Shown in pieces: positions 26,662-45,385 of a DNA stretch of 64,000 nucleotides (the first letter of the stretch is position 1; each line of letters starts with the position of its first letter). Source of the stretch: Rhodohalobacter sp. 614A (GTDB taxonomy: Bacteria > Bacteroidota > Rhodothermia > Balneolales > Balneolaceae); the NCBI RefSeq assembly GCF_021462415.1, contig NZ_JAKEDS010000005.1:1-64000 (forward strand), in the 5' to 3' direction. Made by a program: the position numbers and the translations under genes. Below the pieces are notes generated by a model. The model made no database searches. It worked only from the letters and a program-made list of their open reading frames with translations, and was not told where the DNA came from.

Positions 26662-29600
26662 ATGTATATATCCGATTTAGAATTACACGGCTTCAAAAGT
26701 TTTGCCCATAAAACGCATGTAAAGTTTGATAACGGTATTACCGCTATCGTTGGGCCAAATGGCTGTGGAAAATCTAATATTGTGGACGCCCTCCGTTGGG
26801 TTCTTGGAGAGCAGCGCCCTACCCTGTTGCGTTCCAGTTCCATGAGCAATGTTATTTTTAACGGTACAGCTCAAAAGAAAGCCCTGGGAATGGCAGACGT
26901 ATCCCTCACTTTCGTGAATAACAAAGGCGTTTTGCCGGTTGAGTATAGTGAACTGACAATTACTAGAAGACTTTATCGATCCGGAGACAGCGAGTACCTG
27001 ATCAACAACACTCCCTGCCGGCTCAAAGATATCATGGAGCTGTTTATGGATACGGGCATGAGTTCTGATGCCTATTCCGTGATTGAATTGAAAATGGTTG
27101 AAGAGATTCTGAATGATCGTAACAATGATCGCCGACGACTTTTTGAAGAAGCGGCTGGAGTAACCCGCTACAAGGAGAAGCGGAAACAGACGCTTCGTAA
27201 GCTGGATGAAACCATGAAAGATCTGACCAGGCTTGAGGATATCCTGGTTGAAATTCGAAAAAAAGCTCGTTCTCTTGAAATTCAGGCACAAAAAGCGGAG
27301 AAGGCAAAAAAACTAAAGAAAGAGCTTGAACATCTCGACAAGGCCTACACACTTCACGAATATAAAGCGATTAAAGAAGAGCTCGATCCGCTTGATACAA
27401 AAATTAAAAATGCTGAAAAAGAGAAAGTCGAAATTGCTGACCGCCTGAAAGAACTTGAAGCTGATGAGGAAAAAGCACGGACAAAACTTCTGGAAAAAGA
27501 ACGAAATGAATCCGAAGCAAAACGCCGTGTCAGCCAGTTAAGTTCTGCAATTCGTGAACTGGAAACCAGCCTTCAGATTACAAACGAGAAGATCAGCAAT
27601 GAAGAAGGCGTTATCAATCAGTACGAATCGGACATTGAACAGAGCCGGGTTGATATCAAAGAGCTTGCAGAACTGAAGAAAAGCAATGAAACCAAACTCG
27701 AAAAGCTCACTGAGGAGAAAGACAGATCGGAAAGAGCATTAAGTGATTCGAAGGAAAAATTTTCTGGTATCCAGCAGAAGTATACGAAGGTTCGGCATGA
27801 ACTGTATGAATTGGAAATTGAGATTAGTGACGTCAACCAGAAGCTGACCAACCTGCAGTCGAACCGAATAAAGCTGGAATCGCGGCTGGAAAACAGCGAG
27901 GACGACCAGGACCGTATCGATCAGGATATCGCAAATATTGAAAAAGAAATTCGTACAGCAAAGGAAAAACTTGAAGAAGCGCGAAAGCAGTCCGAAAAAA
28001 TGAACTTCCGGATTGATGAACTGGAAGAACAGCTTCAGACATCCACCTCATCAAAGAGCGAGTTAGAAGAAAAACGGGAATCTCTGCGGGAAGAACTTCG
28101 GTCTGTAAAAAGTAAAAAAGATGCCGTTTCATCTGAAATTTCCCTTCTTCAGGGAATTGCGGAATCCAACGAAGCGATGCCGGCTTCCGTGAGTTATCTG
28201 ATTGAAAATCACAAAAACGAATTCAAGCTTTTAAAACCTGTTGGTGAGCTGCTTCAAACCGCAGAAGAATATGCGCCAGCACTGGATACAGCACTCGGTG
28301 ATGCCGTCAATTTTATCGTTACTGAATCGCTGGAGGAAGCCATTCGGGCATCAGAAATTCTAAAAGAGAATGATAAAGGCCGGGCAACTTTCATTCCGCT
28401 GGCTGAACTGAATGATTCGTATCCTGCGGAATCTGGTTCCATCGTGGAACATGTTTGGTTTGATGATGAGTACAAACCTGTGGCACAACTTCTTCTTGGA
28501 AGTGTGTTGATTTCTGACAGTATTGAAGAAGGAGTAAAACTGCTGAAAAAATCAGGTACTTCGGCCGTTACTTCCACCGGTGACCTGATCACGTCTGACC
28601 GTATTTTGAAAAGTGGAAGCAAGAATAAACAAGCCGGAATTCGTCTCGGTCTTCAGGATAAACTCAACAAGCTTAAAAAGAAAGAGTATAATCTTGAAGC
28701 AAGCCTGGTTTCAAAAGAAGATTCGCTGGATGAAATCAACCGTGATCTAGAGCGCATTGATTTGGATTCTATTCGCCAATCTATCCGCGATCTTCAAAAA
28801 ACAAACCGCGAGCTTGATCAGCAGGTAAGCCGGTATCAGTCCAGTATTCAGGTGTATGGGAAGAATATTGGGGATCTTCAGAACCGAAAGGATAAACTTG
28901 CGGGCAATCGCGATATGGCGATTGAAGAACTGGAAAATCTTCAGCCCAAACAGAAAGAGTTTCAAAGGAAGATAACGGAGCTGGATCAACAGCAAAAAGA
29001 GAAGAAAGAAACTCTCCAGAATCTTGAAGAAGAACGGGCCATTGCCCAAAACCGGTATAATGATGCCCAACTGAAACACCAGGATCTGTCGAACAAAACC
29101 GATAACCTGATCAAGGATATTGAGCGTGCAGAATCCGGCATCGAAAACATGAAAAGCCGCCAGGAAAGCCGAAGCGAGCTGCTTGGTCAAAGTAAAGAGA
29201 AGATTGCCGGATACCGTTCTTCCATCAAAGAAACGGAAGCCAATCTCGGAAAAGCTAAAACACAAAAAAAAGAAGCTGACGAAAAACTGTCCATTGCTGA
29301 AGAAGAGAGCAGCAGGCAGCGTGGCAAGATCAATGAAGTTGAAAAGGAGTTAAAAGAACTTCGAAAACGGAAGGAGGTCAATCTCGAATTGGTTCACCAT
29401 TTGACGATGGCCAAAGAAAAGTTTGAATTAAAAGCGGAGGGTTTATCCGATCACATCTGGGAAACCTACGAGATTTTGATGGATCAGTTGGGTGAAGAGC
29501 TTCCGGCCGATATGGAGCCTGAGGAGGCCAAATCCCGTGTGACAACGCTTCGCCAGAAATTGCACCGAATCGGGGATGTCAACCCGCTTGCGATTGAGGA

Positions 29601-30183
29601 ATTCCGTGAAGAGAAAGAGCGACTTGAGTTTCACGAAGAGCAGATTACCGATCTTCATGAAGCCGAAAAAGAGATGCGCGAAACGATTGCTGAAATCAAC
29701 GAAACGGCTACGGAACGTTTTAATAAAACATTTGAGCAGATTCGGGAAAACTTTAAAAATGTTTTCAGCACGCTTTTCCACGAAGACGATTTCTGTGATT
29801 TGGTGATCCAGGAAGATCCGGAAGATCCGTTGGAAGCAAAAATTGAGATTCGTGCCAATCCGAAAGGGAAACGTCCGTCAAGCATTAACCAGCTCTCCGG
29901 TGGCGAGAAAACCCTGACGGCCATTGCATTGCTATTTGCGATCTATCTCGTAAAACCCTCCCCGTTCTGTGTACTTGATGAGGTGGACGCTCCGCTGGAC
30001 GATGCTAATATTGAACGGTTTTCATCGATGATTAAAACATTTAGCAAGGAAACCCAGTTTATAATCATTACTCACAACAAGAAAACGATGTCTAAAGCAG
30101 AGATGATGTATGGCGTTACCATGCCGGAAACAGGTGTGAGCCGGTTGGTGGGTGTGAAGCTGGATGAGGTAGAGACGGTTTAG
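26662..30183 (+). CDS. smc: Chromosome segregation protein SMC
   Basis: The 1173-residue condensin ATPase organises and segregates the chromosome with ScpA/ScpB. The N-terminal Walker A is GPNGCGKS at residues 31-38. Two long coiled-coil arms (about 165-505 and 670-1015) enclose the hinge domain (about 515-640). The C-terminal head has the ABC signature INQLSGGEKTLTAIALLFAI and the Walker B FCVLDEVDAPLDDANIERF. The gene ends only 3 bp from the stop of the convergent sheath gene. Confidence 0.97.
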   Translation: MYISDLELHGFKSFAHKTHVKFDNGITAIVGPNGCGKSNIVDALRWVLGEQRPTLLRSSSMSNVIFNGTAQKKALGMADVSLTFVNNKGVLPVEYSELTITRRLYRSGDSEYLINNTPCRLKDIMELFMDTGMSSDAYSVIELKMVEEILNDRNNDRRRLFEEAAGVTRYKEKRKQTLRKLDETMKDLTRLEDILVEIRKKARSLEIQAQKAEKAKKLKKELEHLDKAYTLHEYKAIKEELDPLDTKIKNAEKEKVEIADRLKELEADEEKARTKLLEKERNESEAKRRVSQLSSAIRELETSLQITNEKISNEEGVINQYESDIEQSRVDIKELAELKKSNETKLEKLTEEKDRSERALSDSKEKFSGIQQKYTKVRHELYELEIEISDVNQKLTNLQSNRIKLESRLENSEDDQDRIDQDIANIEKEIRTAKEKLEEARKQSEKMNFRIDELEEQLQTSTSSKSELEEKRESLREELRSVKSKKDAVSSEISLLQGIAESNEAMPASVSYLIENHKNEFKLLKPVGELLQTAEEYAPALDTALGDAVNFIVTESLEEAIRASEILKENDKGRATFIPLAELNDSYPAESGSIVEHVWFDDEYKPVAQLLLGSVLISDSIEEGVKLLKKSGTSAVTSTGDLITSDRILKSGSKNKQAGIRLGLQDKLNKLKKKEYNLEASLVSKEDSLDEINRDLERIDLDSIRQSIRDLQKTNRELDQQVSRYQSSIQVYGKNIGDLQNRKDKLAGNRDMAIEELENLQPKQKEFQRKITELDQQQKEKKETLQNLEEERAIAQNRYNDAQLKHQDLSNKTDNLIKDIERAESGIENMKSRQESRSELLGQSKEKIAGYRSSIKETEANLGKAKTQKKEADEKLSIAEEESSRQRGKINEVEKELKELRKRKEVNLELVHHLTMAKEKFELKAEGLSDHIWETYEILMDQLGEELPADMEPEEAKSRVTTLRQKLHRIGDVNPLAIEEFREEKERLEFHEEQITDLHEAEKEMRETIAEINETATERFNKTFEQIRENFKNVFSTLFHEDDFCDLVIQEDPEDPLEAKIEIRANPKGKRPSSINQLSGGEKTLTAIALLFAIYLVKPSPFCVLDEVDAPLDDANIERFSSMIKTFSKETQFIIITHNKKTMSKAEMMYGVTMPETGVSRLVGVKLDEVETV

Positions 30184-30186
30184 AGC

Positions 30187-31584
30187 TCAAGGATCACTCA
30201 TTTCCAAAGAAATTCGAATAACGATAAATTCCGCCGGTCGCACTGCCGCCACACCGAGCTCAATAATTATTCTCCCCTCTTGAATATCAACCTGAGTCAT
30301 GGTTTCTCCCAAACCCACTTTAACAAAGAATGCCTGTTCCTGTTTCGCTCCCTGAATAGCTCCATTTCTCCACAGGCCAAGTAAAAAGTTTTCGATCATT
30401 CCTTTGGCGGAGTTCCACGTATTGGCGTCATTCGGTTCAAAGACAAAACGTTGGGCGGATGCTTCAACCGATCCTTTTATCATCCCAATTAACCTTTGAA
30501 CTGAGATGTAGCGCCATTCGTTATCATTCCCGGCAAGGGTTCTGGCTCCCCAGATTTGTGTGCCGCGACCGGTTAATTTTCTGATAACGTTGACCGATTT
30601 ACCATCCGGGCTCACATTCATCAACTCCTGCTCGGCACTTGAAATGTTGATGATCGGCCGCTCGATGTCATTCAGTTCAACACCCGCCGGTGCCTTCCAA
30701 ACACCCCGATTTATATCTATATATGCATAAACCCCCGCTACTGCTCCGGAAGGTGGAAGGACCAAATGAACACTATTGAGTTGATTCACTATCGCATGAT
30801 AATTCAACTTTCGATCATCATCATTGTGATAAAACGACTCTGTTTTCTTCTCCGGATCATCTTCAATTGTTTGATCAGAATGTCTCAGTACCATTTTCTC
30901 CTCACCGAAAATAACAGTCACTTGGTCTTCGGAATAATGATGCTCTAAATACGAAACAAGTTGTGGATAGTATGCAGCTCCATATCGTAAATGGGGTCCG
31001 CCGAGATGAGATCGCAATTCCTGGATATTGGCTTGATGATCATTCGGATTCGATTCAGAAAATTTCGTATCAATAATCGTGAAACAGTTCCCGATTTTCT
31101 GGCAAACATCCAGCGCTTCTTCATAGACAGAATAGTATTCGTGAGGATCTTCAAAACCACCTAAATCGGTTAGTACAATAAGCGATGGGCCCTTTTGATC
31201 TTGCAGTTTCCGAATAGCCTTTTTGAATTTTCGGGAGTTATAAGTCTTTCCAAAACGGCCGGCCGATAGAACGTAACAAGGCCCTCCTCCATTCGCAAAG
31301 TAGAGCTTTAGAGAATAATAGAGATGAAAAACCGGGGACTCGGGAATTGGTGCGCTGTTCAATGTTGAAACCGAATTTCCATCAACGACAAAAGCGGGCA
31401 GATCAATGTATGGACCGCCAAATAGCTCCTCAAAATCGGTCAGAGAAAAGATTCCGGTCAGCTGTTTGGGTCCCTTTTCCGTGTACCCGATAAAAACCGG
31501 CTTTGATGTCGAAAGCGGATGTACCGAAAAAGGAAATATTGAAACTTCTTCAACGTAAACACCGGGTACGGTATAATCGGGCAT
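30187..31584 (-). CDS. Orphan contractile tail-sheath protein
   Basis: A 465-residue protein of the phage tail sheath family, as used by myophages and extracellular contractile injection systems (eCIS: Afp, PVC, MAC). The N terminus has the handshake-arm motif TVPGVYVEEVS; PPSGAVAGVYAYIDINRGVW followed by KAPAGV, IWGARTLAGNDNEWRYISVQ and RFVFEPNDANTWNSAKGMIE are classic sheath signatures; the C-terminal strand is IIIELGVAAVRPAEFIVIRI. The sheath would surround an inner tube and contract. No tube, baseplate, spike or AAA+ gene lies nearby: the only same-strand neighbour is a TPR lipoprotein 12 bp upstream. The domain call is strong; the assembly it belongs to is unknown. Confidence 0.92.
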   Translation of the reverse strand: MPDYTVPGVYVEEVSIFPFSVHPLSTSKPVFIGYTEKGPKQLTGIFSLTDFEELFGGPYIDLPAFVVDGNSVSTLNSAPIPESPVFHLYYSLKLYFANGGGPCYVLSAGRFGKTYNSRKFKKAIRKLQDQKGPSLIVLTDLGGFEDPHEYYSVYEEALDVCQKIGNCFTIIDTKFSESNPNDHQANIQELRSHLGGPHLRYGAAYYPQLVSYLEHHYSEDQVTVIFGEEKMVLRHSDQTIEDDPEKKTESFYHNDDDRKLNYHAIVNQLNSVHLVLPPSGAVAGVYAYIDINRGVWKAPAGVELNDIERPIINISSAEQELMNVSPDGKSVNVIRKLTGRGTQIWGARTLAGNDNEWRYISVQRLIGMIKGSVEASAQRFVFEPNDANTWNSAKGMIENFLLGLWRNGAIQGAKQEQAFFVKVGLGETMTQVDIQEGRIIIELGVAAVRPAEFIVIRISLEMSDP

Positions 31585-31596
31585 GTTCGCTCTCCG

Positions 31597-32547
31597 CTAT
31601 TCAGAGGAACCGATTCTTGCCAACTCAGCTTCGGAAGCAATATATCCAAATGCCGCCCACTGATCCGTATCATACACATTTTCCCAGATGGAAATGGCAC
31701 GTTCTTCTCGCCCGTTGATGTAATGCCAATTCCCGATTCCATATCCCAAAGTGGCATTTTCGAGAGCATCTTCTGAGGTTTCCATCAGCCGATTAGAGTC
31801 AAAAACTCCTTTAAAAACCAAAATCAGATTCAAGTATGCTTCGTTTTCGATCAGATTAATGTCGGCATTCACCGGTTCAATAATCTCGCCTGCTTTCAGA
31901 TCGTTTCCGGACCTTTTCAGGGCCATATAGTACCAGTAAATCAGTGCAATTCTCATGTCATCCGTTAAATCCAATTTCAGGGATTCTTCATATTCCTGAA
32001 TTGCCAGATCATATTCTCCTTTCAGATAGTGTGCCAATCCTTTGTGATAATAAATATTTGATTTCAGCGTACTTGTGGGCTGATTCAATTCATTTGGAAG
32101 ACCGTCCGGCTCAACCTGATCGGGCATGGAACTCATCAATTCTTTGGCCTTTTCAAAATCTTCAATGGCAAGATCCAATCTTCGAAGAGTAATATATCGG
32201 TGACCGCGATGGCGGGACATTCTCGGATCATCCGGAAACTTGGAAATACCTTCCGTGAAGATCCGAATCGCTTCCCGGTATTCTCCTAAATAGGCCGTTC
32301 TTCTGCCTAACCAGATAATTGCATCCGCATCATCGGGATTTGCCCGGTAGTCTGTCAAAGCCTGGATCAATTTTTCGTTCTGTTCATCAAACATTTCCTG
32401 AGAAATTTCTGGCGTTTCAAGCGTATCTCCCAATAATGAATATCCCTGGATACCTTCAGGAACCGGCTCAAGTTCGCTCTGTTCACTGCATGAAATAAGA
32501 AGTGAGAGCGGAATGAATAGAAGAATAACTGATCGTAAATATTTCAT
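31597..32547 (-). CDS. TPR-repeat lipoprotein
   Basis: A 316-residue lipoprotein: the leader ends PLSLLISC, with the lipid-acceptor Cys about residue 20. Degenerate tetratricopeptide repeats follow (about 60-250), for example NPDDADAIIWLGRRTAYLGE and NIYYHKGLAHYLKGEYDLAI, making a helical protein-binding scaffold. No enzyme motif is visible. It is directly upstream of the sheath gene with a 12-bp gap, so the two are very likely co-transcribed and could interact, although one is predicted lipid-anchored in the envelope and the sheath has no signal peptide. Confidence 0.85.
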   Translation of the reverse strand: MKYLRSVILLFIPLSLLISCSEQSELEPVPEGIQGYSLLGDTLETPEISQEMFDEQNEKLIQALTDYRANPDDADAIIWLGRRTAYLGEYREAIRIFTEGISKFPDDPRMSRHRGHRYITLRRLDLAIEDFEKAKELMSSMPDQVEPDGLPNELNQPTSTLKSNIYYHKGLAHYLKGEYDLAIQEYEESLKLDLTDDMRIALIYWYYMALKRSGNDLKAGEIIEPVNADINLIENEAYLNLILVFKGVFDSNRLMETSEDALENATLGYGIGNWHYINGREERAISIWENVYDTDQWAAFGYIASEAELARIGSSE

Positions 32548-32617: not shown

Positions 32618-33862
32618 CTAAAAAGTCGCTTCCAAATCTATCTCTTCATCATCCCGGAGAATGGTAATTGAAATCGTATCACCGCTCTCCAGCGTATTCA
32701 AAACTTCCATATAACCATATATATCCGCCACCTCTTTTCCGTCCATTTCGATGATGATATCTCCATCCTGTAAACCGGCTGCATCTGCCGTACCATCCGG
32801 ACGAACCTGCTCAATTCGAAAGCCTTCACCTGAGAACGTATAATCCGGCATCACACCCAACGTGGGTCCGCTTCTCATCCGGACATTTCCTCGCGGATCC
32901 GTAGATTCCTGGAAATCGATCTCACCCGGAGTCATTGAATCCAATGTTCTCACGACGCTTTCAACATGCTCCAAAACCTTTTCCATTCCGGCATAGTTAA
33001 TCAGGTCCGCTGTATCCGTTTCCCTATGATATTGTTGATGAGTGCCCGTATAGTAATGCAAAACAGGAATTTCAGCCCGGTAAAACGAAGCGTGATCACT
33101 GCTTCCCATTCCTCCGGGAGTGGTGGTTATTTCAAGGGAATCTGTTTCAACTGAAGCAATAATTTTCTCCCATTGGGATGACGTTCCCGTACCGAAAATA
33201 TCCAGTTCATTATTTTCAAGCCGCCCAATCATATCCAAATTGATCATCGCCAGCACAGAATCGGGGGATATTTCCATTTCATCCACAAAATATTTGGAAC
33301 CGATCAGGCCAAGCTCTTCTCCTGAAAAGGCAACTATCAGAACACTGCTTTGAGGAGGATGTTCCGCAAACTCGCGAGCCAGGTAAAAAAGCCCGGCTGT
33401 ACCCGAAGCATTATCATCCGCGGAGTAATGAAGTGCCGGTTCAGAATTCATATTCATAGAAATTGTTCCGCCCATTCCCTGTCCGTCGTAATGCGCCCCG
33501 ACTATAATATATCGGTTTGGAAACGTCTCGCCTTCAAGCAACCCGACAACATTCCGGGAAATCTGGCTCTCAATTTCCATCGCCTGAACCATTGGGCCTT
33601 CCAGTTTAAACTGCTGGACGTAAGTTCCTTCATCACCCGCAGGTATTAAACCGTATTGCAGAAAATGATCGGATATATAATTCGCAGCATCGGCTTCGTT
33701 GATGGTTCCAACCAACCGCCCGCCACGCTCTTCATCGGCCAGCCAGGTGACATGTTCTTTTAAAAAGTCATCACCAGCTTGTTCCACTTCATTCGTTCCG
33801 CACGACATCAGGAAAAAAAGCCCGATCACAAAGACGGGAAGAGCTATTTTAATTTTTTTCAT
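32618..33862 (-). CDS. Exported M28 family metallopeptidase with PDZ domain
   Basis: A 414-residue lipoprotein (lipobox FFLMSC, Cys about residue 21). The M28 zinc aminopeptidase domain (about 85-310) has the ligands in VGAHYDGQG, HYSADDNASGTAG, FSGEELGLIGSKYF, MINLDMIGRL and SDHASFYRAEIPVLHYY. A protease-associated region is absent. A PDZ domain (about 330-414: FRIEQVRPDGTADAAGLQDG) follows and probably binds peptide ends. It would trim peptides in the periplasm or on the outer membrane. It stands alone, divergent from the thiamine receptor gene. Confidence 0.93.
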   Translation of the reverse strand: MKKIKIALPVFVIGLFFLMSCGTNEVEQAGDDFLKEHVTWLADEERGGRLVGTINEADAANYISDHFLQYGLIPAGDEGTYVQQFKLEGPMVQAMEIESQISRNVVGLLEGETFPNRYIIVGAHYDGQGMGGTISMNMNSEPALHYSADDNASGTAGLFYLAREFAEHPPQSSVLIVAFSGEELGLIGSKYFVDEMEISPDSVLAMINLDMIGRLENNELDIFGTGTSSQWEKIIASVETDSLEITTTPGGMGSSDHASFYRAEIPVLHYYTGTHQQYHRETDTADLINYAGMEKVLEHVESVVRTLDSMTPGEIDFQESTDPRGNVRMRSGPTLGVMPDYTFSGEGFRIEQVRPDGTADAAGLQDGDIIIEMDGKEVADIYGYMEVLNTLESGDTISITILRDDEEIDLEATF

Positions 33863-36755: not shown

Positions 36756-39700
36756 TTACTTCATCACAGTTAGTTTCCGGGTCATGATCTGACTTCCCGT
36801 CTGCAAACGATACAAATACACACCACTGGATAAATGACTCGCATCAAAATCAACCGTATGCCGGCCCGCTGCCACCTGTTCGTTCACAAGGGTAGCTACA
36901 TTTCGCCCCAGCATATCATAAACTTCAAGACGAACCTGACTGCCCACTGGCAATTGATAACTGATCACTGTGCTCGGGTTGAACGGATTCGGATAGTTTT
37001 GACCAAGAACAATTTCTTCCGGAAGTTCACTACTGTGTCCCTTCGGAGATGTTAACAAGACAAAACGGGTGGAGTTAACTGTGGTGACTTTTTTCGGGCC
37101 ACTTGTTCCCCGGGCAAGAATCTCCTCCACCGTTGGTACTTTCTTCTGAGGTTCATTCGTGTCCATTGTAAACGAATAAGCGAAAGAACTGTCGGCTATC
37201 TCTGTGGACTGTTCTTTTTTCTGATCGTATAAGTACAGGCTCATGCCTGCGGGAAGGTCCAGATCGGTAGCAGTGATTGTGTACTTCCCAGACCGGGTGG
37301 CATCTACGGCCAAAGGAATCTCCAGGTCTGGCATTCCGGACGGATAATGAGCGATATCCATCAGCGTGCCATCGGACTTGTGGGTGCCAAGAACAGCATA
37401 ATCAGCCGAGAACGATTGGAGTTCCAGGGCTTCTCCATCCGTGGGAGTTGTGGACCCCTGATCAGAAAAACGAATCCAGGCAGAATTATATAGGGACTCT
37501 CCACGAAGTTCCAGGCGAACAAAATCTTTTCGTTCTGTCTCTTTGCCGTAAAACTCTCCCGTTGTGGTTTGATTGGATTCTGAAAACATTAACGTTGCCG
37601 GTAAATTTTCTGTCTGAACAAAAAAGCCCTGGCCCGGGGCGATATTTCCACTGGGAATATCCCCGTAGTCTCCGGCAATGCTTCGCCAGGCTCCGCCGTT
37701 GTCCATAATCGGGCCCGTCGGGTCGATTGCTGTTGCATTCAGATCGTACACATAAGCGGCTCCTGTCAGGCCGGATGTCCCTGGGTTGGCAAGTACCTCA
37801 TCAAAAGCAATCGGCAGTCTGTACGGGTTGCCTACCAGAGTCCACCCATCTTCACTTTGGTTAACAGTTGGCTCCACATTTCCACTGTGAAAAGCACCAC
37901 TTAGTATAACATCTTTTGGAAACGGGGATGGGTTGGATTCTCCATGCTCATCATCTTCAAAAACATACATTAAAAAGCCGCTGCCGGCAGGAATTGCTTC
38001 CCCAAAGTCTGCCGAGGAAGGAACCTGCCAGCCAGAACAATTCTGATTACTTTCATATTCAAAAACACAGTTCTGATCATTATCTTCATAATTGGTGTTC
38101 CAGACATACACATTGGGTTCTCCGCCGGAGTAATCAGCTCCATCGATTCCCTGGGTCCATAATGGCTCCAACATATTGGCGTAACTTTGTCCGGCAACCG
38201 GACTGGCCAGCATTCGCCAGCCTTCTGTCAGTGTGAGTCTCAATAGAGCTTCGGAGTCACCCTGAAATTCGTACGCGCCTATATCCACAACGTCAGGATC
38301 GGGTGTGCCATCAAAAATTCGTACGTTTCCGGCCAGGTCAGTGGTAATGCCTTCGGCAGGTTCTCCCGTTCCAAATGGGGTATTTGATCCGGCATTTAGA
38401 GCCAAACTTATACTCTGCAGTGAATAATCTCCATTCTCTTCATCAACAAAGACCGGATTGGTATTTAACAGGTTTCCACTCCCGCTGTTAATAGCTGGTG
38501 GAAGATCGCCGTTATTTCCTGATGTTTCATTAAAAAACAGGCTGTTTGCCGCTATTCCTATTCCGGCTCCGCCATCATCATTCATATTGCCGTTTGTTCC
38601 GGAATTATTATAAAATATGGAGTTGATGGCTACTACATTTCCAGCCCAAAAATTAATGGCTCCTCCTTTAGCGCTTTCATTATTCGCTAAGATAGAATTG
38701 ATAAGCTGCACCGTTCCATTCTCAGCAGAAATTGCCCCACCACCGCCAGTAGAACTATTGTTGTAAAAAAGAGTATTGATAAAGGTCAGCTCGCCACCCC
38801 AATTGATCACTGCTCCGCCCACTCCATTGGAACCGTCACCCATGGCATGATTGTCTCTGAAAATGGTATTTGAAATGGTATTATTGCCATTTGTGTCGAT
38901 CGCGGCACCGGTTCGGTTGCCTGTTCCTCCACCATCTGCATAGCCGGATTCAATAATAAATCCGTCAATGGTTACACCGTTTGTTACGGCGGGAATCACA
39001 AGAATGGTGTGGGCATCCCCGGGGTTGGCTGTTTCCGATCCATTTACATCTCCACTCAAGATGGTTGGATGATCGGAAATGTTTCGGTCGGAAAGATCAT
39101 CTTCTGTACCGTCAAATCCACCCAGAAGGCTCAGATTTTCTCTCAATCGAAACGGGTTTGTTTCACCGGCAGGGATGTAGGTTCCTTCAGCCACCCAAAC
39201 CTCTGTGATGCATCCGCTAAGATTATTCAGAGCTGTATGAAGATCGGTATATGCGTTTTCCCAGGACGATCCGTTGTTATCACCGGAAGTAGCGTCCTGA
39301 TCTACATACACAATTTCCGGGGGGTGTACGGTGAAGTTATAGTCATCAGAAAAAGAACCACCTTCAAAATTGTGATCAACAGCCTGTACACTGAATGCGT
39401 AGGTCGTAGATTCACCGCATGCTAATTCAGGAGTTTGAAACGTATAGCTGTTGTGTTGTCCCTGATTGCCGGGTGCAGGAAGTTTTCTCCAGCCATCTGC
39501 TTCCTGAGCCATCGGGCTGATCAAATATGGAGGATCGCCTTCCGGGTCTTCTTTTAAAAAAATGTTATAGCTGAGGCCGTCAGACGGAGTTTCACTATCG
39601 GAGGCCGTTCCCCACGAAAGAGTAATCTCCGATCCATTTTGAACGGCAGAAAGTGAGCCCGGAGCCGAGGGAGCGGTATTACTGTTCTCTGAAAGATTGG

Positions 39701-40973
39701 TATAGAGTTTGACCAATTCATCGTTATTGGTGTAATTCCCCGCTATGATCAGATCGAGAGCGCCATCCTGATCAACATCTCCCATCGCTATCGAGTTGGC
39801 AGCAAGATTTAAAAGAGAGCCTGTAACTTCAGTAAAGTTTCCGCTCCCATCATTCATAAATCTCTCAGTAATAATCTCATCATCAGAAAACCCAGTGTTA
39901 ATTACATCCAGGCTGCCATCGCTGTTCAGGTCACCAAATGCAACGGTACCGGAAACAACTCCTGTAAACGGCTGCTGATCCGCTTCGGAAAAATTGCCAT
40001 CTCCATCGTTTGTGTAGATTCTTGTCTGACGATTCTGATAAGACCCGGGGGGATTCCCTGAAGTAATCAGGTCCAGGTCACCATCGTTATCGATATCTCC
40101 AAAGGCAGCCGAGCTACGCTCCAGTTCTGTTATCGGATTACTTTTTTCGCTGAAATTTCCGGCTCCATCGTTGATATATGTACTTGAAATTCGTCCATCA
40201 AAATCATTATGCCCGGTAATAAACAAATCTAAATTGCCATCATTATCAACATCCCCCAAAATTACACTCCCCCTAAAAATAGATGGTAAATCATCCGGTA
40301 TGGAGGTAAACAACCCACTGCCATCATTGAGGTAGACCGTCAAATTGTTGAAATCATAGGGATTGGCTTGGCCCGAAATAATCAGATCCATATCGCCATC
40401 ATTGTCAATATCTCCGAGCGCAACCGAACTATATTGAACACCTGTCAGCGAATTGGATTTTTCAGTGAAATTGCCGTTTCCGTCATTCAGGTAGGTTTTC
40501 GCTAACTTCCCATCGGTACCAAAAGTAGTTCCTGTTATTACAAGATCAAGGTCTCCATCATTATCAATGTCACCAAATGCAGCGTCTCCCCAGCCTGCCC
40601 CCTCAAGATTGGAATTGGATTTTTCAGTGAAATTACCGTTTCCGTCATTCACATATGTTCTTGAAATAAATTCTATTGAAGAACCGTCGGTTATCCAGAC
40701 GCCCGACAAAAAAAGATCTAGGTCTCCATCATTATCAATGTCACCAAATACCGTGGTGCCCCCTTCTATCTCCATGCCTGAGAACGGAGTATTTTTTTCG
40801 CTAAACAGATCGACATACAGCGCCTTCGCATCGTCCGGTTTAAACTCAGTTTTCGCGTATGAAAGTTGCTGGTTAAAAAGAATGAATAATAAAAAACAGC
40901 AACCAATACGAAGAACTCCTGCAGCCAGGTTGATGAATCGTGATGAATAAGTTTTTGGAATTAATTTTCCCAT
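36756..40973 (-). CDS. Giant T9SS-secreted FG-GAP/beta-helix protein
   Basis: A 1405-residue secreted protein. After a signal peptide (about 1-41) come seven FG-GAP/VCBS-type repeats (about 65-430) of the form FGDIDNDGDLDL, each a calcium-binding DxDxDG loop of a beta-propeller. A fibronectin-like region follows (about 435-545), then a right-handed beta-helix (about 550-905: WVAEGTYIPA, FRDNHAMGDG, NSILANNESAKGGAINFW), a beta-rich stalk, and a C-terminal type IX sorting domain (about 1320-1405: LGQNYPNPFNPSTVISYQLP, VYDMLGRNVATLVNEQVAAG). It should be exported by T9SS and anchored or released at the cell surface; adhesion or polysaccharide binding is plausible. No catalytic motif was seen. 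Two DNA direct repeats lie about 90 bp upstream. Confidence 0.9.
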   Translation of the reverse strand: MGKLIPKTYSSRFINLAAGVLRIGCCFLLFILFNQQLSYAKTEFKPDDAKALYVDLFSEKNTPFSGMEIEGGTTVFGDIDNDGDLDLFLSGVWITDGSSIEFISRTYVNDGNGNFTEKSNSNLEGAGWGDAAFGDIDNDGDLDLVITGTTFGTDGKLAKTYLNDGNGNFTEKSNSLTGVQYSSVALGDIDNDGDMDLIISGQANPYDFNNLTVYLNDGSGLFTSIPDDLPSIFRGSVILGDVDNDGNLDLFITGHNDFDGRISSTYINDGAGNFSEKSNPITELERSSAAFGDIDNDGDLDLITSGNPPGSYQNRQTRIYTNDGDGNFSEADQQPFTGVVSGTVAFGDLNSDGSLDVINTGFSDDEIITERFMNDGSGNFTEVTGSLLNLAANSIAMGDVDQDGALDLIIAGNYTNNDELVKLYTNLSENSNTAPSAPGSLSAVQNGSEITLSWGTASDSETPSDGLSYNIFLKEDPEGDPPYLISPMAQEADGWRKLPAPGNQGQHNSYTFQTPELACGESTTYAFSVQAVDHNFEGGSFSDDYNFTVHPPEIVYVDQDATSGDNNGSSWENAYTDLHTALNNLSGCITEVWVAEGTYIPAGETNPFRLRENLSLLGGFDGTEDDLSDRNISDHPTILSGDVNGSETANPGDAHTILVIPAVTNGVTIDGFIIESGYADGGGTGNRTGAAIDTNGNNTISNTIFRDNHAMGDGSNGVGGAVINWGGELTFINTLFYNNSSTGGGGAISAENGTVQLINSILANNESAKGGAINFWAGNVVAINSIFYNNSGTNGNMNDDGGAGIGIAANSLFFNETSGNNGDLPPAINSGSGNLLNTNPVFVDEENGDYSLQSISLALNAGSNTPFGTGEPAEGITTDLAGNVRIFDGTPDPDVVDIGAYEFQGDSEALLRLTLTEGWRMLASPVAGQSYANMLEPLWTQGIDGADYSGGEPNVYVWNTNYEDNDQNCVFEYESNQNCSGWQVPSSADFGEAIPAGSGFLMYVFEDDEHGESNPSPFPKDVILSGAFHSGNVEPTVNQSEDGWTLVGNPYRLPIAFDEVLANPGTSGLTGAAYVYDLNATAIDPTGPIMDNGGAWRSIAGDYGDIPSGNIAPGQGFFVQTENLPATLMFSESNQTTTGEFYGKETERKDFVRLELRGESLYNSAWIRFSDQGSTTPTDGEALELQSFSADYAVLGTHKSDGTLMDIAHYPSGMPDLEIPLAVDATRSGKYTITATDLDLPAGMSLYLYDQKKEQSTEIADSSFAYSFTMDTNEPQKKVPTVEEILARGTSGPKKVTTVNSTRFVLLTSPKGHSSELPEEIVLGQNYPNPFNPSTVISYQLPVGSQVRLEVYDMLGRNVATLVNEQVAAGRHTVDFDASHLSSGVYLYRLQTGSQIMTRKLTVMK

Positions 40974-41365
40974 GAGTATCCCGGTTTTAAATCAATAGAA
41001 AGAGTTTGAACAGCGAACTGCTGTACTTCGAATAGACATGAAAAAGGATACCTGTCTTAGACTTTCAAATTGTCCGGCATTTCTTTCAAATTGTCCAGAT
41101 CATGTGATTATGACTTGTAAAAGGATATTTATCGTTTTTCTAATCAGGACGAATAAGCAAATTTGTTGAGAAATAAATCGGATAAAATCAGGGGGTAAGA
41201 AACCTTATTTAAAACCAAGTTGAGCTTGCTGATTTACAGAATAATAGATTTCAGAACAGCCATTCGAATGGCTCAAATCGCTGCAACACCCCTACAAAGT
41301 TTTAAAATTGTTCGGTACTTTAAAGGCTCTTAAAATCTATTTATTTGACTATAAATTGGGAGCTT
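40974..41365. other. Divergent promoter region of the T9SS protein and the HTCS gene
   Basis: A 390-bp non-coding stretch between divergent starts. It holds the paired 14-bp direct repeats at 41062-41096 (listed separately) and AT-rich sequence elsewhere. No RNA gene or other frame of note was seen. Both genes can be controlled from here. Confidence 0.7.
41062..41096. promoter_or_regulatory. Tandem 14-bp direct repeat, candidate AraC-type operator
   Basis: CTTTCAAATTGTCC occurs exactly twice, at 41062-41075 and 41083-41096, a start-to-start distance of 21 bp, or two helical turns. AraC-family DNA-binding domains, such as that of the HTCS encoded 270 bp to the right, classically bind same-face direct half-sites with this spacing. 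The pair lies about 90-120 bp upstream of the divergent T9SS protein gene. I saw no third copy in the window. The assignment to this regulator is inference. Confidence 0.65.
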
Positions 41366-44300
41366 ATGCTCACTGCCTTTTTTTGTTTTGTTCTTCTGTT
41401 TCAAAGCCTCGTCTCTTCTCCACCTACTTCAGAGAATGATTACCTGGTCCGTCATTTCACGGCCGAAGATAGTCTGCCGGTAAATGCCGTGAGTGATATT
41501 GCCCAGGATGAAAACGGATATCTCTATTTTGCGACGCTGAATGGACTGGCCCGTTTTGACGGGTACCAATTTGAAACGTTTAACACCAGCAACAGTCCCG
41601 GAATTCTCACCAACCGTTTTTCCGGAATGATGATGACATCGGCCGGAGATATCTGGCTGCCCACCGAGTCGGGACCTCTCACACTCTATCAAAACAATAC
41701 GTTTACAACCTTTACAGAAGAGGATGGTGTTGAAGGACAAAACCTGAGCATTGAGGAAGGAGTCAATGGAGAGCTTTTGATTTCTACCAGTGCCGGAATC
41801 AAAAAGCTGGATTCACAAGCCGGCCGGTTTGTTACTCTTCATCCGGAACTTGAGGTTGAAACCTGGGTCATAAAATCTCAGGCGAACGGTGGTTTACTGG
41901 CTGTGAATCATCATGGAATTGTTCAGTATGAGAATGGCGAAGTACAAGTGTTGCTGGAGCCAAAAGATATGCCTATTCAACCCGAGAGGGTCATGGAATT
42001 AAATCGGTTTTCTGATGGAACCATCTGGATAATGGCAACTATTGGGTTTTTTATTTTCCACCCAAATAAAGGCATCATTCATTCCTATCAAAACAACCAG
42101 CCGCCGGGCTTCATATGCTGGAATGTTTATAAAACCAATGAAGGATCCATACTAAGTACTACTCAGGGATTTTTTCGTGTAGATCCCAAAAATTTCAGTC
42201 TTTCGAGGCTCCCTGTTAAAACGGATCCGGTCATCAACCGGCCAAACACTATTATTTCACAAAACAATCAGACGGTTTTCTTTGGAGATGAAGTGGCTGT
42301 TAACGACCGCATTATTTTTGAAACAGAAGCCGTTAAAACCGGCCTTGTTGATCGGGAAGGTTCCATCTGGGTTGCATCGGAGAGAAATGGACTCTATCAG
42401 CTTCGGAAAAGTATCATTTCTAATATCACCTTGGTTGATAGCAAATCCATCGAAAATATCTATCCAATCATACAAGATTCCAACGGAGATATATGGGCTG
42501 GCAGTTTGCTTTCGGGGGTGTATCGTTTTAAAGATACAGAAACCGATTTTTGGCACGGCGGGAACAGTTCTCTTAACACGACTCAAGTCCGCTTCCTGTA
42601 TGAAGACAACGACGGAACCATTTATATGGGACTTTGGGGAGACGGTCTCTGGAGATTTGAAAACAATGACTGGGTGAGAATGCGGGAGTTCGATCATCTC
42701 TTTGATAATAGCATAACGATTGAAGCAATGTACCGAGATATAAATGACACAATGATTATCGGTACGCGTTCACAAACTGTGCTTGAAAGAAACGGGCGTT
42801 ATCAACTGATGCAAGATTCGTTGGGGACGGGTTTAGAAGGAGTTCGGGTGATCCGGGAATCGAATGATGAAACGCTTTTTTTCGGCACCAACGGTCAGGG
42901 CCTGGGGATTCTTGATTCCTCCGGTGATCTCAAAACCATCACTAAGAGTAATGGACTTCCCAGCAACTTTATCCGTGATATCCATATTCAATCACAAGAT
43001 ACATTATGGATTGCTACTGAAGATCTCGGACTGGCAAGAGTCATTCTGAATTCAGAAAAAAATGTACAATCGATTCAATCTGTTCGTACGAAAGACGGTT
43101 TGATGGATAATTCTCTGCACCGAATTATCGCGGATAGAAGGAATAATTACTGGATCAGTTCCAATAGCGGCGTGATGAAAATATCCCGCAGGGAACTGAA
43201 TGCGTATGCAGATGGAAATCGGGCAAGCCTTCCGGTTATCAGCTATAATCAACGGGACGGTATGGTCAATCCGGAAGCCAACGGCGGCGTACAAACTGCC
43301 GGAGTCCTGACGAATGACAATAAGATCTGGTTTCCTAATCAAAAAGGAATTACGGTTTTTGACCTCACAGAATCCGATTCGGTGGAAAGAAATGGAACGA
43401 TTCAGCCACAGATACAGAATATCATCTTGCCGGATTCTGTCCTCTTCGCATCCAATGATCAGACGATCTCCCTACCCGAAGGCGAAAGAAATGTGAGCAT
43501 TACATTCACGGCACCAAATTTTGCCTATCCTGAACGGGTGAAGTTCAGATATCGCCTGTCGGGAGTCAGTGATGATTGGATTCCGGCAAATGAATCGAGA
43601 GAAGCTGTATTTACAAATCTCGATCCCGGCACCCACCGGTTTGAAATTCAGGCAAATCCCGGAAACGGCGAACTTTCCACTGCATCTATTTTTGTGACGG
43701 TACCATCCTTCTTTTATGAAACCTATTGGTTTTATGTGATGATGATCTGTTTCGGGGGATTGCTCATCTATGGTGGTTTTAAATATCGCACCCGTACCCT
43801 GGTGATGCGTGAACGGGAACTGCAAAAACGTGTCGACGCTCAAACAAAAGAATTGAAAGAGGCTGCCGAACAAAAATCCCGGTTTTTCTCAGGAATCACG
43901 CATGAGTTAAAAACTCCGCTTTCTTTGATCTTAGGACCGATCGACGATCTTGCTGAATCTAAAAAACCGGCCAATTGGAAGAATGTTCAAAACCGGATAA
44001 AGATGATGCAGCGAAACGGCTACAGGCTTCAAAACCTGATCGATCAGATTTTAGATGTTACCAAACTCAATGCCGAGGCCATTCAGCTGATCATCCAACC
44101 TGTGGATTTTGAGAAGCTCAGCCGGCAGATACTAGGACAGTTTCAATCACGGCTCATTCAGAAAAAGATCAACCTCAAAATCCGGTCGGATAAAATAGAT
44201 TCACCTGTCTATTTAGACCAGGATGCCTGGGAACGAATACTCATCAATCTGATGAGTAATGCGATTAAATTTTCGCCTTTGGATTCCGAAATTCAGATAA

Positions 44301-45385
44301 CGATCAAAAATAATGAAAACAAAGTCTCTCTGAGTGTGAAAGATCAGGGTGAAGGGATCAAACCTGAAGATCAGCAACAGGTTTTTGAATATTTATACCA
44401 GGCTAAAGGGAGTCAGTCGGCCGAGGGAACCGGAATCGGACTCTTCCTGGTAAAAGGATTGGTAGAACAGATGGGTGGCGAAATCGAACTGATTTCAAAA
44501 GAAGGGGAAGGTTCTGAGTTTATTGTCAGTTTGAAAAAGGGGTCGGCCCATTTTCGTGATGAAGATCAGGTGCTTCACAATCCGGTCAGTATTTCGGATG
44601 AGCCCGTACCTGTTTTAACAGAAGAAACCGATAGAATAAAAACAGAGCCTAAGCCTTCACCGGCAGGTGATAATCATATATTAGTTGTTGAAGACAATGA
44701 TGATTTCAGATCCTACCTTCAGTCTATTTTGTCTGATGAGCATCGTGTTTCTACTGCTTCTGAGGGGACATTGGCTCTTAAAGTTCTGGAATCAGAATCG
44801 CCGGACCTGATTATTTCTGATGTGATGATGCCCGGAATGAACGGCCTTGAATTTGTAAACTCTCTGAGGGAGAAAAAGCAATTTAAACACCTTCCGGTAC
44901 TCTTTCTATCTGCAAAAAATCATGAAACGGATATTGAAGCCGGCCTTTCTACCGGGGCCGATATTTACCTGACCAAGCCGATTAAAAGCAAAATGCTGCT
45001 TGCTCAGGTGAATGCTATTCTGCGCAGAGAAAACGTTCTTAAAAATCAGGAAATCAATAAAACAGAGAATAATGAGCCTGAGTTAGTTTCAGAAATTCGC
45101 ACAATCGTCTACCGGCAAATGGCAAATTCTGCTCTGAATGTGACGATGCTTGCGGATGCCTTGTTTATGAGCCGATCAAAACTTTATGAGGAATGGAAAA
45201 AAGTTAGCGATATGACAATCAATGATTTCATAAAAAGCATCCGGTTGCAGGAAGGTAAAATCCTGATTAAAGAAAAAGGCTTTGGAATCCAGGAAACGGC
45301 ACATGCCGTCGGCTATTCGAATTCGGATTATTTTTCGACCAGTTTCAAGCAACAGTTCGGGGTAAGTCCTTCGCAGGTAAAATAA
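41366..45385 (+). CDS. Hybrid two-component system regulator (HTCS)
   Basis: A one-protein signalling chain of about 1339 residues. N-terminal signal/anchor, then a two-propeller periplasmic sensor (about 20-695) of Reg_prop repeats such as IWVASERNGLYQLRK, a Y_Y_Y domain (about 705-775), one transmembrane helix (about 787-807), HisKA with His846 in SGITHELKTPLSLILGP, HATPase (SNAIKFS, DQGEGIKPED, GTGIGLFLVKGL), a receiver with Asp1152 in LIISDVMMPGMNG, and a C-terminal AraC-type helix-turn-helix. HTCSs usually sense glycan fragments and switch on uptake loci. Here no SusC/SusD or glycoside hydrolase is adjacent; the neighbours are T9SS cargo genes. The ATG at 41366, with GGGAG just before it, is preferred; a TTG at 41345 is in frame. 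Confidence 0.92.
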   Translation: MLTAFFCFVLLFQSLVSSPPTSENDYLVRHFTAEDSLPVNAVSDIAQDENGYLYFATLNGLARFDGYQFETFNTSNSPGILTNRFSGMMMTSAGDIWLPTESGPLTLYQNNTFTTFTEEDGVEGQNLSIEEGVNGELLISTSAGIKKLDSQAGRFVTLHPELEVETWVIKSQANGGLLAVNHHGIVQYENGEVQVLLEPKDMPIQPERVMELNRFSDGTIWIMATIGFFIFHPNKGIIHSYQNNQPPGFICWNVYKTNEGSILSTTQGFFRVDPKNFSLSRLPVKTDPVINRPNTIISQNNQTVFFGDEVAVNDRIIFETEAVKTGLVDREGSIWVASERNGLYQLRKSIISNITLVDSKSIENIYPIIQDSNGDIWAGSLLSGVYRFKDTETDFWHGGNSSLNTTQVRFLYEDNDGTIYMGLWGDGLWRFENNDWVRMREFDHLFDNSITIEAMYRDINDTMIIGTRSQTVLERNGRYQLMQDSLGTGLEGVRVIRESNDETLFFGTNGQGLGILDSSGDLKTITKSNGLPSNFIRDIHIQSQDTLWIATEDLGLARVILNSEKNVQSIQSVRTKDGLMDNSLHRIIADRRNNYWISSNSGVMKISRRELNAYADGNRASLPVISYNQRDGMVNPEANGGVQTAGVLTNDNKIWFPNQKGITVFDLTESDSVERNGTIQPQIQNIILPDSVLFASNDQTISLPEGERNVSITFTAPNFAYPERVKFRYRLSGVSDDWIPANESREAVFTNLDPGTHRFEIQANPGNGELSTASIFVTVPSFFYETYWFYVMMICFGGLLIYGGFKYRTRTLVMRERELQKRVDAQTKELKEAAEQKSRFFSGITHELKTPLSLILGPIDDLAESKKPANWKNVQNRIKMMQRNGYRLQNLIDQILDVTKLNAEAIQLIIQPVDFEKLSRQILGQFQSRLIQKKINLKIRSDKIDSPVYLDQDAWERILINLMSNAIKFSPLDSEIQITIKNNENKVSLSVKDQGEGIKPEDQQQVFEYLYQAKGSQSAEGTGIGLFLVKGLVEQMGGEIELISKEGEGSEFIVSLKKGSAHFRDEDQVLHNPVSISDEPVPVLTEETDRIKTEPKPSPAGDNHILVVEDNDDFRSYLQSILSDEHRVSTASEGTLALKVLESESPDLIISDVMMPGMNGLEFVNSLREKKQFKHLPVLFLSAKNHETDIEAGLSTGADIYLTKPIKSKMLLAQVNAILRRENVLKNQEINKTENNEPELVSEIRTIVYRQMANSALNVTMLADALFMSRSKLYEEWKKVSDMTINDFIKSIRLQEGKILIKEKGFGIQETAHAVGYSNSDYFSTSFKQQFGVSPSQVK

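Follow-up and report, generated by a model that had tools for sequence, protein, structure and literature searches.

A sheath gene between a TPR and an SMC gene

The window analysed here, a stretch of 64,000 nucleotides from Rhodohalobacter sp. 614A (contig NZ_JAKEDS010000005.1, positions 1 to 64,000), carries a gene for a contractile tail sheath of the type found in extracellular contractile injection systems (eCIS). The gene lies between a gene for a TPR lipoprotein-like protein and a convergent gene for an SMC-type ATPase (Table 1), and the window encodes none of the partners of a sheath, as the initial annotation of this DNA, made from the sequence alone, had stated. The data presented below suggest that this sheath is very probably the one eCIS gene left of an island that has eroded. 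We estimate at roughly 60% the probability that it both arose in this way and has been kept by selection in a role that does not involve an injection machine.

Table 1. Genes and gaps at the sheath locus (positions in the window)
Feature	Position	Strand	Evidence
Stand-alone eCIS-type tail sheath gene, 465 aa	30187..31584	-	ORF, Pfam, phmmer, tree, predicted fold
TPR lipoprotein-like gene, conserved neighbour of the island site	31597..32547	-	Pfam TPR matches
12-nt gap from TPR stop to sheath ATG, with a ribosome-binding-like GGAGAG stretch	31585..31596	-	Sequence read directly
3-nt gap between sheath stop and SMC stop	30184..30186		ORF ends
SMC-type ATPase gene, other flank of the island site, convergent with the sheath	26662..30183	+	ORF, domain match
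M28 peptidase gene with PDZ, conserved neighbour of the TPR gene	32618..33862	-	ORF, domain match

The sheath open reading frame (ORF) is full-length and has no internal stop, and every motif that had been named for it (VPGVYVEE, DINRGVWKAP, WGARTL, FVFEPND and VRPAEFIVIRI) is present in its translation. The protein matches Phage_sheath_1C (E 1.7e-12) and Phage_sheath_1 (E 9.2e-8) of Pfam, both beyond the curated cut-off, and its closest solved relatives by phmmer are the sheaths of AlgoCIS (7adz) and of Anabaena (All3325, 7b5h), with E values of about 1e-103. An AlphaFold model built on a 47-row alignment reached a mean predicted local distance difference test score (pLDDT) of 91.1, with the lowest confidence at the N-terminal arm. 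In a Foldseek search with this model the top matches were 7b5h and the AlgoCIS structure 7ae0, and the predicted fold is that of a sheath.

The match to Anabaena Cis2/All3325 spans residues 3-463 and is the best fold match; AlgoCIS Alg2 (7adz, 7ae0) also matches in fold, and residues 260-463 of the window sheath align to it without gaps. Alg2, however, has the extra domains III and IV and belongs to a full cluster (PMC8894135), and Cis2 is part of a complete, membrane-anchored thylakoid contractile injection system (PMC8894136), whereas the window sheath stands without a partner.

The GC content of the sheath gene, overall and at third codon positions (GC3), falls inside the range of the neighbouring genes. 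Sequence comparison lent no support to a recent mobile source: a prophage origin was dropped with all 126 phage records below 60% identity at their best place and none covering 80% of the query, and a plasmid origin with all 122 plasmid records below 60% identity, 49 of which covered at least 80%. The sheath was likewise dropped as a known defence gene, no PADLOC model matching either it or the TPR protein.

The rest of the machine is missing

The genome (G000 in our numbering) comprises 4.69 Mb in 10 contigs and is 99.34% complete. Across all of it the sheath family gave a single match, both by profile and by protein query. The tube Phage_T4_gp19 (PF06841), the tail terminator Pvc16_N (which we take to be the former DUF4255) and CIS_tube (PF19266) gave no match in the whole genome; these are found in 9, 8 and 7, respectively, of the 58 genomes compared. 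Genes for gp25, Baseplate_J and the spike are absent from the 64-kb window, the rest of the genome not having been searched for these. We also compared the window by tblastn (E <1e-5) with the ORFs of at least 60 aa from the eCIS island of a relative described below (G015), and only the sheath, the TPR gene and the adjoining peptidase matched; with these queries the window holds no relics of other island genes. One AAA+ protein that adjoins the sheath of another genome (G052) had two matches in G000, both weak (identities 28 and 32%, frame lengths 702 and 584 aa).

One suggestion of the initial annotation, that the remaining parts are encoded elsewhere in the genome, is therefore not supported for a second sheath, the tube, Pvc16_N and CIS_tube. 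A working eCIS whose other genes lie in unassembled sequence, have diverged too far for the profiles or are partly present seems very unlikely to us: the assembly is in 10 contigs and the baseplate and spike were sought in the window only, but the genome is nearly complete, and the profiles that find nothing here do match in relatives that bear an eCIS. If the tube and cap are truly absent, as the searches say, the window sheath cannot belong to an injection machine in this cell. The sheath itself is genuine, and with no partner present it would work by itself, together with something unrelated to the machine, or not at all.

A conserved TPR gene beside the site

As its other option the initial annotation had the sheath work alone or with the TPR lipoprotein, for example as an envelope-tethered filament. 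The two genes share a strand and the 12-nt gap suggests that they are on one transcript; by eye, the LLISC near the N-terminus of the TPR protein resembles a lipobox. However, strong matches to the TPR gene (E <1e-100) occur in 24 of the 28 genomes of the genus, the window genome being one of them (the other four are 57-84% complete), and 16 of these 24 have no sheath match at all. A sheath gene adjoins the TPR gene in none of the 17 other genomes whose TPR neighbourhood was examined. As judged from gene content, then, the TPR gene is a neighbour of the site and not a partner of the sheath, and the idea of a conserved pair falls. Apart from strand and spacing nothing in the analysis supports the tethered filament, which is extremely improbable; the sheath, moreover, has no signal peptide by eye.

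A whole eCIS island occupies the same junction in a relative

Seven of the 17 genomes (G003, G005, G011, G012, G015, G016 and G019) have the arrangement of the window, with the SMC gene opposite the 3' end of the TPR gene. In G012 and G003 the two genes converge with only 6 nt and 91 nt, respectively, between them; the interval holds two ORFs of at least 90 aa in each of G011, G016 and G019, and three in G005. The SMC gene adjoins the TPR gene in a different orientation in G030, and in the remaining nine genomes it is not next to the TPR gene in the stretch read.

G015, the relative nearest to the window genome by TPR match, has an interval of about 28.7 kb, and this interval is a two-sheath eCIS island located at the same junction as the window sheath. 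From the TPR side it begins with HTH_18, Pvc16_N, a 262-aa protein, sheath 1 (468 aa) and sheath 2 (589 aa), followed by two gp19 tubes, CIS_tube, a Phage_base_V spike, Baseplate_J and more genes, and ends with VanY beside SMC. Sheath 1 is full-length and has the orientation of the window sheath, to which it is 49% identical; flanking proteins measured between 21.9 and 36.6 kb are 81-94% identical between the two genomes. The two loci differ in that sheath 1 of G015 is followed by the other parts of the machine and has evolved slowly. In G005, only the wall-associated genes PG_binding_1, SH3_3 and VanY of the island are found at the TPR/SMC junction; their identities to the three counterparts in G015, where the island borders on SMC, are 83, 76 and 84%. 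The window SMC protein shares 87.6% identity with its G015 counterpart and 87.3% with the one in G005.

Because a whole island in G015 and part of an island in G005 share the junction with the window sheath, we consider the latter to be the remnant of such an island, and to be an orthologue or close homologue of G015 sheath 1 as far as the alignments tell. The simplest history is one two-sheath island between the TPR and SMC genes in an ancestor common to the three genomes, which stayed whole in G015 and left its wall genes in G005 and sheath 1 in the window genome. In the latter, deletions on both sides would have removed the HTH gene, the Pvc16_N cap, the 262-aa gene, the second sheath, the tubes, spike, baseplate and accessory genes, in an order and at dates that we can only infer, and would have spared sheath 1 complete between the two short gaps. 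On this erosion reading the 3-nt gap between the sheath and SMC genes is the junction left by the loss of the remaining island. The sheath would now be co-transcribed with the TPR gene, be translated from its own ribosome-binding site and be a soluble cytoplasmic protein. G015, G005 and the window genome would offer three erosion states at one site for study.

The VanY, SH3_3 and PG_binding_1 genes, which belong to the island in G015 and occupy this junction by themselves in G005 (L089:10087-14702 and L091:11169-14361), possibly encode wall enzymes for particle release. G005, which has no sheath match, also carries a lone gp19 tube gene beside TamB and Omp85-type genes (L092:10000-10440), and G015 has a tube and Phage_base_V spike pair with no sheath nearby on a contig other than that of its eCIS (L104:5047-7310).

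Stand-alone sheaths recur in other genomes

Within the class, we surveyed 198 genomes of at least 85% completeness and found the sheath C-terminal domain in 32 of them and the tube in 32. Seven of the 32 sheath-bearing genomes have no tube match (G000, G023, G044, G047, G048, G050 and G118). G118 is doubtful because its sheath matches sit at contig ends, and four (G044, G047, G048 and G050) are drafts of 88-93% completeness; well assembled are G000 and G023 (7 contigs). None of the 47 matches to the sheath C-terminal domain in this survey (about 100 codons each) contains an internal stop.

Eight of the best 80 GTDB loci have a sheath and no gene for a tube, CIS_tube, spike, gp25, baseplate J or Pvc16 in the stretch examined. 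Three of these eight (L152, L153 and L177) have an AAA+ match, and for five of the eight the whole genome has no tube match. Twenty GTDB loci had been flagged as lacking a tube; four on short contigs (L109, L119, L181 and L187) were left unchecked, and eight of the 16 re-checked do have eCIS genes.

In a tree of 137 sheath rows the stand-alone state occurs in 15 rows and requires at least nine changes, and has therefore arisen repeatedly. Besides the window, the stand-alone loci include G023, G044/G047/G050/G052 together with L153, G048, Gelidibacter L114, Salegentibacter L137/L143 and Hymenobacter L177. Like the window sheath, these are open sheath genes with none of the machine genes just listed in their stretch, but they lie at other sites with other neighbours, an AAA+ gene being near the sheath in G044, G050, G052, L153 and L177. 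Gene neighbours vary from case to case, and no partner is common to most. In the genus g15 an alpha/beta hydrolase gene precedes the sheath, and an AAA+ gene follows it except in G047; there is no tube match in G044, G047 and G050. The g15 rows of hydrolase, sheath and, except in L042, AAA+ gene are at L041:13162-16969, L042:7189-10230, L043:9688-14173 and L049:708-3685.

Two of these other stand-alone sets are under purifying selection. For the g15 set, G052 included, the ratio of nonsynonymous to synonymous divergence (omega) is 0.062-0.117 in the nine of ten pairs that allowed synonymous divergence (dS) to be calculated, and for the pair L143-L327, which share neighbours, omega is 0.144 at a dS of 0.22.

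The survey was extended to the family of L137, with 349 genomes, of which 65 have the sheath domain and 69 the tube. There were 78 sheath matches, 71 of them inside the 67 stretches read; the seven outside were L137's own gene and six weak matches (E 2.6e-5 to 9.7e-5). Eight of the 67 stretches have a near-full-length sheath alone and one a truncated sheath (L298, a fragment only); L272, L322, L328 and L329 yielded no usable sheath. Seven of the eight genomes with a lone sheath have a tube match elsewhere, by position. Split loci are therefore common in this family, and a sheath alone in its stretch is not necessarily alone in its genome.

We put forward only tentatively, and as something less likely than our reading of the window gene, that stand-alone eCIS-type sheaths in Bacteroidota are recurrent, selected single-gene co-options after the machine was lost or split, the subunit being kept for a role independent of tube and baseplate, such as the blocking of foreign contractile tails or internal scaffolding. 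If such sheaths do act by themselves, part of a molecular syringe has found a second use away from the syringe.

The stand-alone sheath of Gelidibacter maritimus (L114:9815-11383, 522 aa), in a genome with no tube match, begins by eye with a signal-peptide-like sequence, as if exported. That of the congener G023 (L040:2228-3754), its sister in the 137-row tree with a support of 96 in the SH-like approximate likelihood ratio test (SH-aLRT), carries some 45 additional residues at the N-terminus, including a hydrophobic stretch ahead of PGVY; its start codon is uncertain.

The window sheath has changed fast and stayed open

The 137-row tree groups the window sheath with the genus's sheath-1 genes and with single sheaths of Flavilitoribacter and Gelidibacter, in a clade with an SH-aLRT support of 99. 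Its end branch, 1.24, is the longest of all rows (median 0.21). Nonsynonymous divergence (dN) between the window and G015 is 0.46 for the sheath, against 0.057-0.259 for nine further genes that the two have in common in this region. Between G015 and G012, where the sheath is inside an eCIS, it is 0.152, slower than that of SMC (0.195); the excess change therefore belongs to the window lineage, if the window and G015 sheaths are orthologous.

A codon model fitted on eight sheath-1 sequences rejected omega = 1 on the window branch (twice the log-likelihood difference 16.9) and on the branch of the stand-alone G023 sheath (9.0). Of 250 columns invariant in six eCIS sheath-1 proteins, 34% are changed in the window sheath. 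Simulated neutral evolution to this share of changed residues produced 8.0 stops on average and no stop-free run in 200; the observed gene has none. At 16.5% changed residues, five of 200 runs were stop-free. The frame has been kept open despite heavy amino-acid change, most likely because the folded sheath subunit is useful by itself.

Weighing origin and retention

Several observations weigh against this history or against a continued use, and they are gathered here. A 25-row mixture-model tree places the window sheath at the base of its clade, with an end branch of 1.85 and a clade support of only 92/87, and does not group it with G015 sheath 1, which forms a group of its own with that of G012; the window sheath may therefore possibly come from a different sheath lineage. 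In an approximately unbiased (AU) test its grouping with G015 was nearly rejected (p 0.0775), while its grouping with G015 and G012 was not (p 0.237). Throughout the comparison with G015, dS is saturated or nearly so. The window sheath is changed in 21 of 127 columns that are invariant in the other 11 sheath-1-like rows, against at most five in any other row; constraint has clearly been altered, and such changes are also expected when it is relaxed. A separate omega for the window branch fits no better than one omega for all (its optimiser did not fully converge and ended 0.5 lnL lower). The branch average may cover time spent inside a working eCIS, so that selection after orphaning is an inference for the window gene. 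Some of the other sheaths stand alone in their own stretch but not in their genome: a different contig of G052 bears an eCIS with a sheath of its own, and a tube occurs at another place in the genome of L143. Finally, decay does happen, as the truncated stand-alone sheath on contig C16 of G371 (L298:5977-6468, a frame of 164 aa) indicates.

Both the tree, with the window gene outside G015 and G012, and the low sheath identity next to well-conserved flanks would fit the arrival of a single gene, a diverged sheath 1 from another eCIS that shares its site with G015 by coincidence or through recombination; in G012 and G019 the eCIS indeed lies on contigs other than that of the TPR gene. We nevertheless regard such an arrival as unlikely, since junction and orientation are those of G015, further island genes sit at the same junction in G005, orthology survives the AU test, and GC and GC3 resemble those of the neighbours.

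A more serious contender, though one to which we would give well under even odds, is that the island was lost recently and that the sheath is a passive relic, still open by chance and decaying without function. The long branch, the altered columns and the truncated sheath in another genome are in line with this, and most stand-alone sheaths share no partner, although AAA+ genes lie near some (g15, L152 and L177). If the window sheath is orthologous to G015 sheath 1, however, its excess change arose outside the machine, where so much neutral drift should have introduced about eight stops or more; omega = 1 is rejected over the branch, the class survey found stop-free sheath domains throughout, and the full ORF was spared at both junctions. 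We think it likelier that the sheath has been kept as a stand-alone and probably co-opted protein than that it is simply decaying.

One guess at the use of a retained sheath is a decoy or poison, in which the lone subunit enters the growing sheaths of contractile phages or foreign injection systems and halts their assembly. Indirect pointers are that the predicted fold is intact, that the N-terminal PGVYVEE arm is retained, and that stand-alone sheaths originated separately and repeatedly, some in genomes with no tube match; but a decoy presumes co-assembly across distant sheaths, has no PADLOC match to point to and is itself a subset of the retention reading, and we hold it to be improbable.

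Relation to known systems

Orphan hcp/vgrG islands of type VI secretion systems are likewise single parts of contractile machines away from a full cluster; they differ in supplying tube and spike parts and in having been studied mostly on plasmids (PMC13098142), whereas the window has a sheath and no machine was found. A 2025 survey of contractile injection systems discarded candidate clusters that lacked any required gene category (PMC12210884); catalogues of this kind demand several core genes, and solitary sheaths would be filtered out by design. Among the highest-ranked matches of our literature search, which did not cover subscription papers and preprints, there was no description of solitary eCIS sheath genes. 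The sheath family itself is already known; its stand-alone, selected state is not described in those matches.

Sheath arms and helices, and other genes of the window

Two structural leads were dropped. The C-terminal arm is a strand exchanged between neighbouring sheath subunits (PMC6088184 and PMC8894135). In the 137-row discovery set, 42 of the 200 departures of ten stand-alone lineages from conserved columns fell within the last 20 residues, against 16 of 440 for 30 diverged eCIS sheaths (Fisher 1.5e-11; matched re-test p 3.8e-5). The preplanned out-of-sample test in the L137 family, from which 4 of 66 rows were omitted as near-copies of discovery rows, failed (matched p 0.91, unmatched p 0.06), and eCIS sheaths with tubes beside them have equally divergent arms in that family. 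The arm signature is therefore no evidence that stand-alone sheaths cannot polymerise.

The second lead concerns R363 and E370/E371: at these positions, conserved in at least 90% of rows in alignment A2, the window sheath has Q, K and G. Pyocin and diffocin use alpha10, a helix of domain I, as their attachment helix (PMC6088184), and that of AlgoCIS also lies in domain I (PMC8894135); we do not claim a loss of tube contact, as the identity of the altered helix with the attachment helix could not be established.

Beyond the sheath locus, the window encodes a 1405-aa protein that has FG-GAP repeats and, at its C-terminus, a Por secretion sorting domain (36756-40973) and a hybrid two-component regulator (41345-45385) with Reg_prop, Y_Y_Y, HisKA, receiver and AraC-type HTH domains.

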